The notes under the pieces are model-generated. The model saw only the letters and a list, made by a program, of their open reading frames with translations, searched no databases and was not told the DNA's origin. This document shows, piece by piece, positions 38,010 to 64,000 of a stretch of 64,000 bases of DNA. Source of the stretch: Enterococcus crotali (GTDB taxonomy: Bacteria > Bacillota > Bacilli > Lactobacillales > Enterococcaceae); contig NZ_AYPQ01000003.1 in the NCBI RefSeq assembly GCF_000633635.1, positions 153,694 through 217,693 of the forward strand, read 5' to 3'. The position numbers and the translations under genes were made by a program. Position 1 is the stretch's first letter; each line of letters begins with the position of its first letter.

Positions 38010-38034
38010 CGAGTCGTCTTATTCTATTTCTTAG

Positions 38035-38116
38035 ACTACTTCCCTACGCGAGTATCAACTCACAGGTTCAAAGGGTCCGTTCAAACGAACGTCTCAGTCA
38101 AAATGACTCCCCTAGT
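38035..38116 (-). ncRNA. TPP riboswitch (THI element)
   Basis: Minus strand shows the conserved blocks GGGGAGT, CTGAGAC, ACCCTTTGAACCTG, TGATACTCGCGTAGGGAAG in order. It controls tenA-thiM-thiD-thiE. An extended -10 (TGCTATACT) lies just upstream at about 38128-38136. Confidence 0.95.
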
Positions 38117-38197
38117 ACGTGTCTAAAGTATAGCATATTATTTTGGTATTAGCTGTTAATATTGGGATTTTGCTATTTAATTTCTTCTAACGTTCAA

Positions 38198-45295: not shown

Positions 45296-47200
45296 CTAGT
45301 CTTCTGTTTTCGCCTGTCTCATCTGCATTTCTTTTTTTAATTTCTTGTGGGCTTTTTTAGAACCACGTTCCAGATCCCTGATTTTTTTACGCTCATGATA
45401 ATTTTCAAATAAGGAATCTAGATCATAATTTGGTGGATATAGTTCTTTTGCGCTACGATCTAGTTTTAATTGGCGTTTATGAACGGTTATTTTTTCATTG
45501 TCCACATAAATCACAACATCATTCGTCATTTCTATGGGTTCAAATACCAAACCAATTTTCTTATTCTCTGTCCAAAAGACCCGATCCCCTTTTTCATACG
45601 TTGGAAAAATCGTTTGTTCTTTTTGTTTTTTGACTTTTTGAAGGGACGCTTCCTTCTTAGTTGAATAGTTGCGATCATGTAAATAATTTTGAGCAAGTTT
45701 AACGACATGTTTATCTAAGTTCATCTTATTTGCGATCCAAAAAGCGTTGCTTTCACCAGTTTCTCCCAAAATCAATTGGTATTTAGGCATTAAGTTCTCT
45801 GAGTCAAACGCCATTGCAGCAGTGAGAAAATCTTCATGTTGTTCAGAAAAACGTTTAATTTCTCCATAGTGCGTCGTTGTAATAATGATACTGCCTTTTT
45901 TGTAGAAAGCTTCCATGATCGCGATTGCTAATGCTGCACCTTCATTTGGTTCGGTTCCACTACCGATTTCATCGAGTAAAATCAAGCTGTTTTGTTTCGT
46001 TTTAGCAAGAATTTCAGAGATATTATGCATATGTCCTGAGAAAGTGCTCAACGCATTCTCGATACTTTGCTGATCTCCGATATCAACGAAAATCTGATCA
46101 AAAATAGCAATATTCGTGCCGTGATCAGCAATAATTTGCACACCAATCATCGTTTGCAGCGAAATCAGTCCAACCGTTTTTAGCACAACCGTTTTTCCTC
46201 CTGCATTCGGTCCGGTGATCGTCAGCCCACGATACTCTTTGCCAAGTGAGAGATTCAACGGTACAGCCGTGTCACCTAACAATGTGTGTTTCACATTGAC
46301 AAATTCGATGATTCCTTCTTGATTGATTTTAGGTTCAATGCCGTTGATTTCTCTGCTGTATTTCGCTTTAGCAAAAATCATGTCATATTGTGCAACCACT
46401 TCTAAGTTTGATTGGATCGAGCTCATTTGTTCTGCAATCAAGCCAGTCAGAGTAGATAAAATTTGGTACACTTCTGTCGCTTCTTCCATCTTTAGCTGAT
46501 ATAACTTATCATTCAGTTTAGCTACAGTTGCCGGCTCAACAAAAACAGTCGTCCCTTTCGAAGAAGCATCTATAATGGTTCCTGAGATTTGGTTTTTATA
46601 AGTTGCTTTGATCGGTACTGTGTATCGGTCGTTTTTCTTGACCACGATTGCTTCTTGAATTTTCGGTTTATTTTGCGCATTTCTAAGAAATGAATTTAGT
46701 TTCAGTTCAATTTCTTTTTCACACTCTTGAACAGCCCGACGAATTTTACGAAGCTCACGACTGGCATCATTTTCCACTTGATTGTTGCGAATGACCTGAT
46801 AAATTTCATCTTCAATATCAGAAAAGAGCTGTAACGATTCGCTATATCTAGCTAAAATTGGTGCGATAAACTGATTTTTTTGCATGAATGATTGAATCAA
46901 ACGACTACTCCTAAGAAAATCTGCGTAGCTGACTAACTCATTAGGCTCTAAAATAAACCCCTTTTCAACTTGATTGGTTAGATGTTCAATATTGTTTAAG
47001 CCCATAAATGGAACATGTAGATTTGCGAGAAGCAAGGCTTTTGCTTCTGAGGTTTCTTGTAAACGTTTTTTGACCACATCTAAGTGACTACTTGGCTGTA
47101 ATGCGTTGATTCGCTCTTTTCCGTAGTAACTGATTGCATAGGTCATTAGTTTTTCTTTGATTGTATTAAATTGCGTTTTATTATATGTTTCTTGATTCAT
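45296..47200 (-). CDS. MutS2-like ATPase lacking the Smr nuclease domain
   Basis: The protein is 634 aa; canonical MutS2 is about 780-790 aa. Residues 1-300 are the core and lever helices (DASSKGTTVFVEPATVAKLN is typical of MutS2). The ATPase follows: GPNAGGKTVVLKTVG near 330, LLDEIGSGTEPNEGAALA, ITTTHYGE. A KOW-like segment (KGDRVFWTENKKIGLVFEP) follows, but the chain ends in a basic coil where MutS2 has its C-terminal Smr endonuclease. B. subtilis MutS2 acts on collided ribosomes, so this paralogue may be ribosome-directed. ATG at 47200 after GGAGATACCA. It sits behind an attenuator-like leader. Confidence 0.88.
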   Translation of the reverse strand: MNQETYNKTQFNTIKEKLMTYAISYYGKERINALQPSSHLDVVKKRLQETSEAKALLLANLHVPFMGLNNIEHLTNQVEKGFILEPNELVSYADFLRSSRLIQSFMQKNQFIAPILARYSESLQLFSDIEDEIYQVIRNNQVENDASRELRKIRRAVQECEKEIELKLNSFLRNAQNKPKIQEAIVVKKNDRYTVPIKATYKNQISGTIIDASSKGTTVFVEPATVAKLNDKLYQLKMEEATEVYQILSTLTGLIAEQMSSIQSNLEVVAQYDMIFAKAKYSREINGIEPKINQEGIIEFVNVKHTLLGDTAVPLNLSLGKEYRGLTITGPNAGGKTVVLKTVGLISLQTMIGVQIIADHGTNIAIFDQIFVDIGDQQSIENALSTFSGHMHNISEILAKTKQNSLILLDEIGSGTEPNEGAALAIAIMEAFYKKGSIIITTTHYGEIKRFSEQHEDFLTAAMAFDSENLMPKYQLILGETGESNAFWIANKMNLDKHVVKLAQNYLHDRNYSTKKEASLQKVKKQKEQTIFPTYEKGDRVFWTENKKIGLVFEPIEMTNDVVIYVDNEKITVHKRQLKLDRSAKELYPPNYDLDSLFENYHERKKIRDLERGSKKAHKKLKKEMQMRQAKTED

Positions 47201-47525
47201 TGGTATCTCCTTCTCTTTTAAGAGATACCTATCTTCTTTTGAATAGGCCAAAGAAATTCCTTTTAGCTGCGTATATGTTTTATCGATCAATAGGATATAC
47301 AAAAAGGGATGAAGTGTCCCTTCATCCCTCACTAATCAATAAATAAAGATAGATATACGACAGTCTATCAGGTGATTTTTTATGAGTTAAGATAGGTATC
47401 AACATAGGTATGCTAAAGAAGCCATCTAAAAATGGTTGTTTATTCTTCAGCTATTCATTTCCTCTAGTTAGATACTTACACTCACAAAAACACCTCTATG
47501 GCTTTCTTTGGCTATTCATTTCTCG
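47201..47525 (-). ncRNA. Structured attenuator-like leader of the MutS2-like gene
   Basis: The leader of about 320 nt contains an 8-codon small ORF (47519-47496), a second 6-codon ORF with AGAGGTG before its GTG (47485-47468), and a near-identical repeat GAAATGAATAGC at both ends of this part. AAAGAAAGCCAT (about 47511-47499) can pair with ATGGCTTCTTT, and GATACCTATCTT with AAGATAGGTATC, flanking an intrinsic terminator (47304-47332). This is the layout of translation-sensing attenuators. The function is inferred. Confidence 0.6.
47304..47332 (-). terminator. Intrinsic terminator inside the MutS2-like leader
   Basis: GGGATGAAG / CTTCATCCC perfect 9-bp stem, loop GGACA, followed by TTTTTGT, about 105 nt before the start codon. 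Confidence 0.8.
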
Positions 47526-47530
47526 CTAAA

Positions 47531-47559
47531 AGTATACCGCAGTTATTTTTATTGGTCAA
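47531..47559 (-). promoter_or_regulatory. Promoter of the MutS2-like transcript
   Basis: -35 TTGACC, 17-bp spacer, -10 TATACT on the minus strand. Transcription should start near 47524, giving the long leader. Confidence 0.75.
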
Positions 47560-47568
47560 CAAAATTAT

Positions 47569-49005
47569 TTAGAATCCCATCATTTTTTGATATAAATCCA
47601 AGTATAATCGGCTTGATTTTTCCCAACTAAAATCCTTTGCCATTGCTGTTTCCATCAATTGTATCCATGTTTTCTGATCGTTCCAATACAAATCAATCGC
47701 CATATTTGTGCTATATAATAAGTAATAGGAACTAAAATCTGAGAAACCAAAACCTGTTCCCGTTTTTGTCACTGGATTAAAAGGAATCACCGTATCTTTC
47801 AAGCCGCCAATTTCGTGAACGATCGGTAAAGTACCGTAACGCATGGCAATCATTTGTGATAATCCGCATGGTTCTGTTGCAGATGGCATCATAAACAGAT
47901 CAGAACCCGCATAAATCAATTGCGCCAAGTCAACATCAAACGTAATCTTCGCTTTAAATTTAGTTGGATAATGCTCAGAAAAATAGTTAAACGACTGTTC
48001 AATTTCCGGGTCTCCCGTTCCAAGAAGCACCAGTTGAACCTCTTTTTCCAAAAGTTTCGCTAAATCATCTAAAATCAGATGAAATCCTTTTTGAAACGTT
48101 AAACGACTGACGATACCAATCAACGGTACATCATCCCGAATGGGCAGTTCCATTTTCGTTTGCAACGCTTTTTTGTTTTTCTTTTTACCTGATAAGTCGT
48201 TTATCGAAAAATTTGCTGGGATCGATTGATCTGTCTCTGGATCATTCATATCATAGTCGATTCCATTTAAAATGCCGGTCAATTTTTCTTGTTCTAGCCG
48301 TAAAATACCATCTAGGCCAAAACCAAATTCAGGTGTTTTTATTTCTTCTGCGTATGACGGACTCACGGTATTCACTCGATCAGCGTATAAGATCCCCGTT
48401 TTTAAATAATTGACGCCATCTCCAAAGCCGACAGCAGCATCATAGTCACGATCTGGTCCCATTCCAAAAAAGTCTGACAATAACTCTTTGCTATACGCTC
48501 CTTGAAATTCAATATTATGAATCGTTAACACCGTTTTGATTGAACGATAAGCTTCGATCCATCGATCTTTTTCCTTTAACAGAAAAGGAATCATCGCTGT
48601 GTGAAAATCATTTACATGGATAATATCAGGTAGCAAGTTGATTTTCGCCAACATTTCTATGATTGCTAAAGAAAAGTAGGCAAAGCGTTCTCCGTCATCC
48701 TCATAGCCATATAGATTTTCACGATCAAAATAATATGCGTTCTCAATAAAATAATAGGTAACATCATTCCGAACTAACCGTTTAATCCCACAATATTGAT
48801 GGCGCCAACCAACATCAACATAAAAGCTGGTTAGATCCTCACATTGTGCTTTAAAGGATTCGGGGATCTTTGTAAAATACGGCAAAACAACAGAAATTTT
48901 TGCCTCTTTTTTAGCTAGTTCTTTAGGCAATGCTCCTATTACATCACCTAATCCTCCCGTTTTGAAAAAAGGGGCGCATTCTGCTGCTGCAAATAATACA
49001 TTCAT
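47569..49005 (-). CDS. glgA: Glycogen synthase (ADP-glucose type)
   Basis: The protein is 478 aa, a GT5 glycosyltransferase that adds glucose from ADP-glucose to the glycogen chain. Motifs: EcapFFKTGGLGDVIGALPKEL at the N-terminus (KTGGL binds ADP-glucose), DIIHVNDFHTAM, GIVSRLTFQKGFHLI, and the C-terminal PSATEPCGLSQMIAMRYG. The ATG at 49005 overlaps the glgD stop (TGATG). Last gene of glgB-C-D-A; no glgP follows. Confidence 0.95.
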   Translation of the reverse strand: MNVLFAAAECAPFFKTGGLGDVIGALPKELAKKEAKISVVLPYFTKIPESFKAQCEDLTSFYVDVGWRHQYCGIKRLVRNDVTYYFIENAYYFDRENLYGYEDDGERFAYFSLAIIEMLAKINLLPDIIHVNDFHTAMIPFLLKEKDRWIEAYRSIKTVLTIHNIEFQGAYSKELLSDFFGMGPDRDYDAAVGFGDGVNYLKTGILYADRVNTVSPSYAEEIKTPEFGFGLDGILRLEQEKLTGILNGIDYDMNDPETDQSIPANFSINDLSGKKKNKKALQTKMELPIRDDVPLIGIVSRLTFQKGFHLILDDLAKLLEKEVQLVLLGTGDPEIEQSFNYFSEHYPTKFKAKITFDVDLAQLIYAGSDLFMMPSATEPCGLSQMIAMRYGTLPIVHEIGGLKDTVIPFNPVTKTGTGFGFSDFSSYYLLYSTNMAIDLYWNDQKTWIQLMETAMAKDFSWEKSSRLYLDLYQKMMGF

Positions 49006-50156
49006 CACTCAGTTCCCCCAATAACATCTTTCTCAACCACTTGATTTTTATGGATCACGACAGGATTTTGTGCTGTACCAGAAATTTTCACTCCGGCCTT
49101 GACCGTGACATTTTTATCTAATATAGCATATTCGATCACTGCATCTTCTTCAATTTGAGCGTTCGACATCACGATCGTTCGTGTCACTTTGGCTCCTTTT
49201 TTAATCATCGTTCTTCTTGAAATCAAGCTGTTTTCCAAATGTCCCTCGATGATACAGCCGGTTGCACACTGACTATTTTTTACACTAGAATTCTCTGAAT
49301 AATAGGTCGGCACTTCATTTTTACGTTTCGTATAAATTTTTTGTTTTGTATACATCAATGCATTGAATTTTTTTACGTCCAACATATCCATATTAGCCTG
49401 ATAGTAAGAAGTAACATCATCGATATTACTTAAATATCCAGTATATTCGTATGCTGTCGTCTGAGTATCCCCTATTTTTTCTCCTAAAAATTCAATCAGA
49501 CTTGTCGAACTGTTATTGGCTTGACCGATTATTAATTCTTCTATCAGCCACTTGGTTTGAACGATAAAGATGTCCATAGAAAGGCTCACTTGTTTTTCTT
49601 TCTCTAATTCTTGCTCAAAGGCCTGAACACTTGCGACATTTCCTGCTTTGTCGACTTGAATGATTCGATTATTCGCTGATAGTTTTTCTGGTTCCATCCG
49701 TTTATAAACAACCGTCATCTTATTGTTTTGTTTTTGATGCGTTTTCAAAACAGCCCGCAGATCAATCGCACAAAGCATGTTACTTCCCATAAAAACTGTA
49801 TACTCAGATTCTGATTTTTCAAGATAATCGATCACCGCAGAATAATAAGGCAACCCTTGTGCTTTTTGCTTTAAAAAATCCTGATAGAAATAAACAAAAT
49901 AGCTATTTTGAAGAGAATCTAAATTCCATTCTTTCCCACCACCAATATGATCAAAAACTGAACGGGTTTCCCCTTCATTGAATATCATAAAAATCGAGTT
50001 GATGTTTGCATTAGCAATACTTGAAAGAGGAAAATCGATCAACCGATATTTGCAATCAAAAGGCAATGTATCTAAGGGTCGCTCTTCCGTTAATGGTAAT
50101 AAGCCTTGAAATGCTGATACATTTCCTAAAATCGCACACATTTTTTTAGTCTTCAT
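49005..50156 (-). CDS. glgD: Glucose-1-phosphate adenylyltransferase, regulatory subunit
   Basis: The protein is 383 aa. Paralogue of GlgC: nucleotidyltransferase-like N-terminus ([21 protein letters not shown]) and a left-handed beta-helix C-terminus, but the GGxGxRL catalytic loop is replaced ([16 protein letters not shown]), as expected for the modulating GlgD subunit. It forms a heterotetramer with GlgC. Overlaps glgC by 11 bp. Confidence 0.93.
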
Positions 50157-63622: not shown

Positions 63623-63775
63623 CAAAATACCGACAAAATGAATAAAATAAACATATATTCTTAATGTTTATTATGATACAATAAAAAAACAGAGAAGTTA
63701 TGACGGTGGCTACTTCTGAAAGGTGGTGGTGCTTATGAAAGTAAGTACTGAAATCTTTAGAGAGGAGAATGCCTT

Positions 63776-63874
63776 TTGTCCGCATTGGAAGCAATTCAGC
63801 TGATTTTAAGCTTTGGTATGTTTACCATCGCCTTGATCAAACTGATTGTGGAATTGCTTAAAGACAAAAAATAA
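63776..63874 (+). CDS. Holin-like type I toxin peptide
   Basis: 32 aa from a TTG with GGAGA 7 nt upstream: a short start SALEAIQLILSFG, one membrane helix (MFTIALIKLIVELL), and a basic KDKK tail, the pattern of putative holin-like toxins of Lactobacillales. An ATG at 63735 with an AGGTGG site is one base out of frame; restoring a T in the run at 63774-63777 would give a 46-aa toxin starting MKVSTEIFREENAFLSALE. Expression of such peptides is toxic to the membrane. An antisense RNA is encoded opposite. Confidence 0.7.
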   Translation: MSALEAIQLILSFGMFTIALIKLIVELLKDKK

Positions 63875-63981
63875 CCGTCAGCTTTAGCAGGGCAACGGTT
63901 ATTCTTAAAAAAATAATTTAGTCTAGTTACCGTCTTAAACGGCTCTGTCGAAGAGGGTATGTTAGCGCATATCCTCTTTAC
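63865..63981 (-). ncRNA. Probable antisense antitoxin RNA of the holin-like toxin
   Basis: Minus strand -10 TATAAT at 63988-63993 near the window edge, then a hairpin AGAGGATATGCGC..AT.CCTCTT region, and a terminator AATAACCGT / ACGGTTATT with T5. It overlaps the 3' end and terminator of the toxin mRNA, like RatA or RNA II antitoxins. The -35 lies beyond or at the edge. Confidence 0.5.
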
Positions 63982-64000
63982 GAGCTTATTATAGCATAAA

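Follow-up and report, generated by a model that had tools for sequence, protein, structure and literature searches.

In translational attenuation of the ermC kind, leader segments 1:2 and 3:4 stand against the alternative pairing 2:3, and erm leader peptides are longer than the upstream open reading frame (uORF) considered here. According to a figure legend on ermC, a stalled ribosome frees the start site through this exchange of segments (PMC10219788). Inducible leaders precede the ribosome-protection genes vmlR, msrD, and cplR (PMC9226507; PMC10314930; PMC10201436), and such leaders have led to new ribosome-protection genes, such as lmo0919 (PMC5418344). In the cited account of the ABC-F gene vmlR of Bacillus subtilis, the uORF lies in an anti-antiterminator helix, and is accompanied by a hairpin carrying the pause motif TTNTTT, an intrinsic terminator, and a hairpin over the Shine-Dalgarno (SD) sequence of the gene, and transcription attenuation acts together with translation attenuation; the uORF reads MIN, and variants such as MDN work (PMC9226507). 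The msrD leader, as described in the source, has a six-codon peptide before UAA (MsrDL, MYLIFM), a terminator, and an embedded TTNTTT; macrolide-dependent stalling at the stop codon is known for MsrDL, and MsrD negatively regulates its own leader (PMC10314930). Short uORFs are also given for the Bacillota ribosome-protection factors CplR (MR[I/M]), VmlR2 (MK[L/Q]), and LsaA (MAGN), and the same source takes the very short uORFs of ABC-F genes to be sensors of drugs acting directly after initiation, largely irrespective of sequence (PMC10201436).

The window analyzed here is a stretch of 64,000 nucleotides from Enterococcus crotali. On its minus strand lies the gene of a MutS2-like ATPase, and in front of it a first-pass annotation had described a promoter, two tiny ORFs, a direct repeat, segments able to pair in alternative ways, and a terminator, and had read them as a translation-sensing attenuator of the erm/ABC-F type. 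On inspection of the sequence all of these leader features were found (Table 1). The leader, first put at about 320 nt, measures about 325 nt to the ATG when counted from the deduced transcription start. Among 11 promoter-like sites in 46500-49800, the promoter TTGACC-17-TATACT scores highest (10/12 matches), and it is retained in the genus leaders inspected; the scan alone proves nothing, because shuffled sequences yield 11.5 sites against the 11 real ones. The leader RNA folds with -104.6 kcal/mol compared with -63.0 +/- 5.1 for 100 shuffles (z = -8.2). At the gathering score no Rfam family matches 47201-47559. Elsewhere in the window, Rfam places a TPP riboswitch at 38024-38123, and rli28 and RatA near the end, at 63667-63842 and 63905-63991.

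Table 1. Features of the leader and its gene (positions in the window).
Feature	Position	Strand	Basis or remark
glgA stop	47569	-	Promoter lies downstream of it
Sigma-A-type promoter TTGACC-17-TATACT	47559-47531	-	Promoter scan; -10/-35 seen in genus leaders
Transcription start (inferred)	near 47525	-	Deduced from promoter
Direct repeat GAAATGAATAGC, two copies	47522-47511 and 47461-47450	-	Sequence
First tiny ORF ATGAATAGCCAAAGAAAGCCATAG, 8 codons, MNSQRKP*	47519-47496	-	Sequence
5' strand of long-range helix	47517-47503	-	Inside first tiny ORF; partner-swap test
SD AGAGGTG of conserved uORF	47497-47491	-	Sequence; kept in relatives
Conserved uORF GTGAGTGTAAGTATCTAA, GTG AGT GTA AGT ATC TAA, MSVSI*, 6 codons	47485-47468	-	Candidate stall sensor; 85/85 family loci
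Segment 1, last codons of uORF MSVSI*	within 47485-47468	-	Pairing
Third mini-ORF ATG AAT AGC TGA	47458-47447	-	Read as base of pause hairpin, not as conserved ORF
Conserved hairpin	47452-47412	-	Helix covariation
TTCTTT, instance of the TTNTTT NusG pause motif	47420-47415	-	In 3' strand of conserved hairpin
Segment 2 GATACCTATCTTAACTCA	47400-47383	-	Predicted to pair with uORF (segment 1), terminator 5' arm, or segment 3
Intrinsic terminator, 11-bp stem, loop of 5, U tract	47330-47304	-	Terminator scan; about 105 nt upstream of ATG at 47200
3' strand of long-range helix with mRNA 5' end (TTTCTTTGGCCTATTC with GAATAGCCAAAGAAA)	47256-47241	-	Fold; swap test 85/89
Segment 3 GATAGGTATCTCT	47233-47221	-	Complementary to segment 2; in the alternative state, to the gene start site
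Hairpin sequestering gene SD	47229-47203	-	Predicted fold
Gene SD AAGGAG	47212-47207	-	Inside sequestering hairpin
Smr-less MutS2 paralogue, 634 aa	45296-47200	-	MutS core, ABC ATPase, possible KOW/SH3-like stretch, conserved tail

Among the systems compared, vmlR appears to be the closest documented architecture. The two leaders agree in the elements listed above for vmlR, but here Met-Ser is kept as a peptide, a segment past the terminator pairs with the mRNA 5' end in an additional long-range helix, and the target is a MutS2 paralogue instead of an ABC-F gene. With msrD the leader shares the six-codon peptide before UAA, the terminator, and the embedded TTNTTT, whereas the peptide sequence is unrelated. 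It resembles ermC in its segment logic and differs from it by the added terminator. The uORFs of CplR, VmlR2, and LsaA, as given in the cited text, are similarly short and differ in peptide and effector (PMC10201436). A literature search by subject rather than by peptide sequence, covering few subscription journals, turned up no publication that describes a leader upstream of a Smr-less MutS2.

The ATPase gene is located downstream of glgA on the same strand, and the minus strand of 46500-49800 has just this terminator-like site and an overlapping shorter form, which would fit a plain terminator of the glg operon followed by an independent gene start, with the uORF incidental. The probability of this reading verges on negligible, however. 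The promoter sits between glgA and the terminator, and therefore the leader can be its own transcript; moreover, different genera retain the uORF, the hairpin, and the terminator, and this unit is also found in front of other genes. A stall-responsive attenuator of the vmlR/erm kind accounts for the leader with good probability, and its parts are considered in turn below.

The second of the two tiny ORFs (8 and 6 codons) in the first-pass annotation is the one that is conserved. Together with its SD, and in the form (A/G)TG-AGT..., it was found upstream of the ATPase gene in 85/85 family loci, 180-575 nt from the gene; 24 of the loci were additionally inspected by eye. The search pattern required AGT or AGC at position 2, so Ser2 is no evidence in this count, while codon 3, which was free except for A or G as its first base, was Val in 84/85. 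Common peptides were MSVSI, MSVVI, MSVxGI, and MSVLGI; the consensus is M-S-V-x-G-I-stop, with MSAVVSK* or MSGVGIN* as the forms of Bacillales/Clostridia. With the same pattern, 10 of 39 further order-level loci had no such uORF, and the proteins of these ten show 38-48% identity, except for one partial locus (53%). In the set of 114 leaders, Val was encoded by GTA (77), GTC (14), GTG (7), or GTT (6); this total of 104/114 is biased because the choice of leader rows, which limited codon 3 to V, A, G, T, or E and favored MSV among several uORFs, leaned to MSV, a bias from which the 84/85 is free.

A less biased test ranked uORFs solely on their SD, their length, and their downstream complementarity at 71 Bacillales/Clostridia loci (L168-L240; 73 loci minus one truncated and one Enterococcus, with one Aerococcus among those kept). 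The top-ranked uORF began with Met-Ser in 50 of the 71, and all six Ser codons were used (TCG 27, AGT 15, TCT 4, AGC 2, TCC 1, TCA 1). At 18 of the other 21 loci a Met-Ser uORF was present but ranked lower or was without a 6-base complement; the ranked lists of L216, L217, and L218 contained none, although L217 has one by eye. TCN and AGY codons are not interconvertible by one change, and therefore this comparison of sequences indicates that the uORF is selected at the peptide level, with the proviso that the loci and the genomes behind the leaders are related, so that the counts are not independent. The strict Met-Ser start in turn speaks for a uORF that would act as a sequence-dependent staller. 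When 20 genomes were scanned with a pattern for the Cytobacillus/Peribacillus uORF, 10 had a single site each and none had a second.

Attenuators that respond to starvation for an amino acid or its charged tRNA also use a short uORF and a terminator, and the layout would therefore fit a leader in which the uORF codons are the sensor. This is very improbable here. The uORF has no run of regulatory codons, its Ser2 is encoded by AGT or TCG, which are read by different tRNAs, and its codon 4 is highly variable in the 114-leader set; besides, judged by family name, none of the five gene families found under the leader (see below) makes Ser, Val, Gly, or Ile.

Three smaller elements did not hold up in the roles considered. 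The first tiny ORF, as a conserved peptide, was rejected since its sequence changes within the genus and it is not retained beyond it. The repeat GAAATGAATAGC noted in the first-pass annotation is present, but it is a genus-level feature not kept in other genera, and its copies are read as structural: the first supplies the 5' strand for the long-range helix and the second forms the base of the conserved pause hairpin. The mini-ORF MNS* was rejected as a tripeptide sensor like the MIN of vmlR, as other genera mostly carry TTGAATAGC-like sequence at this place.

A search for a conserved leader in relatives had been proposed at the outset, and it showed that the second uORF, the pairing hairpin, the terminator, and a complement close to the start site are widely kept, while the first uORF and the repeat are not. 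The proposed covariation analysis covered 42 leaders, 9 of them upstream of other genes. The helix of the uORF end with segment 2 (GATACC-type) plus the pause hairpin was paired in 89.4% of cells, compared with 26-43% for slid versions, a comparison that favors the structure since it was named by hand from these same sequences, because automatic consensus folding of the mixed alignment gave just one 5-pair helix. Changes on both sides were seen in 10 of the 14 pairs, which 1 of 500 shuffles equalled; the helix of uORF and segment 2 taken singly was paired in 87.1%, with both-side changes at 6/9 pairs. The segments with alternative pairing capacity noticed at first reading are present, and two helices covary.

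In 111 of 114 leaders the motif TTNTTT occurs 38-112 nt past the start of the uORF, with A (92), C (12), or T (7) as its variable base; shuffled sequences give 23.4. It is the NusG pause motif described for vmlR (PMC9226507; PMC12288461), and by itself it is insufficient for pausing (PMC12288461). In the present leaders it comes with an RNA hairpin and has the sequence features of a NusG-dependent pause site, at which pausing is predicted. A strict terminator was present in 100 of 119 leader rows (5 of them duplicates), although a few of these picks are poor, with stem pairing near zero on folding. Near the gene start site, a run of at least 8 bases complementary to segment 2 was found in 91/112 leaders, and the match was shorter in the other 21; the mean run was 9.4 compared with 6.1 after shuffling. 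An unexpected helix pairs the mRNA 5' end with the segment after the terminator. Its sequence is replaced between genera and its pairing is retained: native partners beat the mean of swapped ones in 85/89 leaders and every swap tried in 51 (mean -19.8 vs. -13.1 kcal/mol).

Folding at equilibrium with the uORF masked lowered terminator pairing by more than 0.05 in just 5/86 leaders and freed the start site in just 10/102, none going the opposite way; with a control mask placed elsewhere, the start site was freed in none of the 102 leaders and became closed in 3. In the leader of the window neither terminator nor start site changed. Equilibrium masking rarely flips the terminator, and therefore the switch would be kinetic or work otherwise. 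When the RNA was ended before the 3' arm of the terminator, as in a nascent transcript, blocking of the uORF led to stronger pairing between segment 2 and the 5' arm of the terminator in 74/96 leaders and to weaker pairing in none (0.00 to 0.50 in the window). Total terminator-arm pairing rose in 54 and fell in 14 of the 96; in the window it dropped (0.66 to 0.53), as the arm has other partners when the uORF is not blocked. Shuffling of segment 2 halved the arm pairing (0.50 to 0.24), and the real value exceeded the shuffled mean in 78/96, while in the window the shuffled segment nearly equalled the real one (0.39) and 6/20 shuffles were as high. A partner-swap test of segment 2 with the terminator arm was not significant (n = 36, p = 0.064). 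Nascent-RNA folding thus backs a switch only in part: a terminator switch is considered likely, but kinetic and unproven, and for a start-site switch the complementarity is widely kept, but equilibrium folding releases the start site in a minority of leaders.

The product scores 565.6 bits against TIGR01069 (MutS2), over model positions 1-531 of 790 only, and 373 bits against B. subtilis MutS2 (PDB 7qv3, 8qpp) over residues 1-534. Like MutS2 it has the MutS core, the clamp, and the ATPase; unlike MutS2 it has no detected Smr domain, carries its own RGSKKA signature, and falls into a separate clade of a 40-row tree (support 100/99). The description of the protein as a MutS2-like ATPase without Smr therefore stands: Smr was not found in the window protein in Pfam at E up to 1 (6 families matched), nor among the matches listed for 34 members from Lactobacillales, Bacillales, and Clostridia (25 of 56 Pfam families). 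The ABC ATPase of the window protein carries Walker motifs, and those 34 sequences, the window protein included, have invariant GxNAGGKT and DExGSGT columns and a common C-terminal tail (LYPxxYDLDSLF...RGSKKA) with several invariant columns. A weak profile match (4.4 bits) aligns a possible KOW/SH3-like stretch at 516-585 to MutS2 620-687. The score against the KamC reactivase ATPase model NF052383, 213.1 bits, is under the curated cut-off of 300. The same genome encodes a separate 788-aa MutS2 with the Smr signature LDLRG, 35% identical. By these comparisons, the product is a Smr-less MutS2 paralogue with a C-terminal tail of its own.

The window ATPase is 97% identical to a protein of Enterococcus ureasiticus (L162). 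At E <= 1e-120, orthologues were present in 21/22 genus genomes, 85/105 family genomes, and 78/295 order genomes (family members included), and the remaining 20 family genomes gave no MutS2-like match. The one genus genome of 22 without an ATPase match at this threshold (G010) is also the only one without a leader hit (E <= 0.5), leader and gene being missing together. Spread by plasmids was considered and rejected: no plasmid record matched the window leader or one RsgA leader, and the 15 plasmid records with a protein match (E <= 1e-60) all show less than 60% identity. One Mef-like leader matched one 919-kb replicon of Enterococcus gilvus. A second, more distant Smr-less type (L242, L243) is found on plasmids of Cytobacillus and Paenibacillus and lies on the MutS2 side of the midpoint root of the 40-row tree. 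L242 has upstream of 1801 its own uORF-like MLGVVLN, a complementary segment, and a terminator, and L243 has a matching TTAGTTAAGAAC.

According to the cited text, loss of MutS2 makes B. subtilis hypersensitive to chloramphenicol, tetracycline, and erythromycin, a MutS2 Walker B mutant is sensitive to erythromycin but SMR mutants only slightly so, and removal of the SMR domain strongly cuts the binding of MutS2 to ribosomes (PMC10897456). This last result speaks against a simple transfer of function to a protein without Smr. By analogy with MutS2 we consider it reasonably likely that the Smr-less protein acts on ribosomes, a confidence slightly lowered because the missing SMR is needed for strong binding of MutS2.

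The leader was searched for with the uORF pattern and then with covariance models R1 and R2. The pattern gave 11 extra places, 7 of them leaders and 4 chance matches. R1, built without the pump and polyamine leaders, nevertheless found four of them; the leaders used to build R2 included each of the five groups. Across the 105 family genomes, R2 gave 106 hits of at least 48 bits, with the next hit at 33 bits; 85 hits are at the MutS2-like gene, one per genome having that gene, and 21 are elsewhere. In 398 class genomes it gave 5 hits, all preceding a MutS2-like gene, of which three are known leaders and two were newly inspected.

All 21 leaders at other genes were inspected, and most group members were assigned by reading their translation. 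Eight precede an RsgA-type GTPase of 446-447 aa (L103-L105, L108, L109, L143, L148, L149); L103, the member that was tested, has an RNHCP domain, and no publication on RNHCP together with RsgA came up in a text search. Seven precede a Mef-like MFS pump, of which one member was tested (257.5 bits to Mef(A), under the cut-off of 675) and two look interrupted (L147, L155). Four precede a fusion of a BpsA-type polyamine synthase with AdoMet decarboxylase, SpeD (L145, L146, L153, L156; tested on the first two), and possibly link translation stress to polyamine synthesis; the uORF of these leaders reads MSSVTVSI* and similar. The last two precede a GNAT enzyme. The first-pass gene is therefore one of five gene families under the same leader, which apparently form a regulon, and the original observation is confirmed as real and larger than first described.

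Nine weak R2 hits (29.5-33.4 bits) were excluded, and five were inspected, namely one of three copies in one genome and four others. The former (L159, G066:C3) belongs to a ribosomal protection protein resembling Tet(M), which scores 496 bits against tet_protect (cut-off 775), and its leader shares the TTATTTGGTGTG pause hairpin; the three copies are spaced by 8,440 bases along a contig of 25,275 bases, and the repeats look like a concatenated 8.4-kb replicon. L158, L160, and L161 belong to a SAM-dependent methyltransferase with a different leader (31-33 bits to R2), in which a long stem and a terminator accompany a pause hairpin of similar kind.

The distribution of the leader bears on what it would sense. 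Ribosomes might stall naturally on MSVxGI*, for example at the stop codon, and be cleared by the ATPase or by the rescue systems of the cell, in which case the leader would gauge the load of stalled ribosomes and not a drug. The gene product is related to a splitting factor for collided ribosomes, and MsrD, which is described to act on the stalled complex and thereby to repress its own leader, offers a precedent (PMC10314930). Such self-sensing is nevertheless unlikely, given that some of the genes behind the leader have no known part in ribosome rescue (Mef-like pump, BpsA-SpeD, GNAT) and that one genome (G101) has the leader without a MutS2-like match at E <= 1e-120.

For the stall-responsive attenuator, which the uORF (85/85), the terminator (100/119), and the two covarying helices support as first proposed, the following sequence of events may be envisaged. 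In the OFF state, ribosomes would complete the uORF MSVSI*, segment 1 would pair with segment 2, and RNA polymerase would terminate at the intrinsic terminator; in any read-through RNA, segment 3 would mask the gene start site. In the ON state, a pause of RNA polymerase at the TTNTTT hairpin would give a ribosome time to load on the uORF, and its stalling there, caused by a drug or another ribosome poison, would cover segment 1. Segment 2, now free, would pair first with the terminator 5' arm and allow read-through, and next with segment 3, by which the start site would be released. The MutS-type ATPase thus induced might, by its kinship with B. subtilis MutS2, split or clear the stalled ribosomes.

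Tentatively, and with somewhat less than even confidence, one ancestral stall-sensing leader of the M-S-V-x-G-I type may have spread over five unrelated gene families to form a ribosome-damage regulon of Bacillota, in which the Smr-less MutS2 would be an inducible ribosome-splitting resistance factor working without the collision-reading Smr domain. If this is true, Smr-less MutS2 would be a further kind of inducible resistance factor beside ABC-F and the HflX-type proteins, which are resistance factors as well. The leader, which spans Clostridia to enterococci, points to the Smr-less MutS2 family as a likely factor that is inducible and directed at ribosomes, and through it four more gene families are linked to this signal. 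The leader also raises the testable question of how MutS2-type ATPases would act on ribosomes when they lack the Smr domain, and it makes the uORF a candidate stalling peptide whose ligand can be sought.
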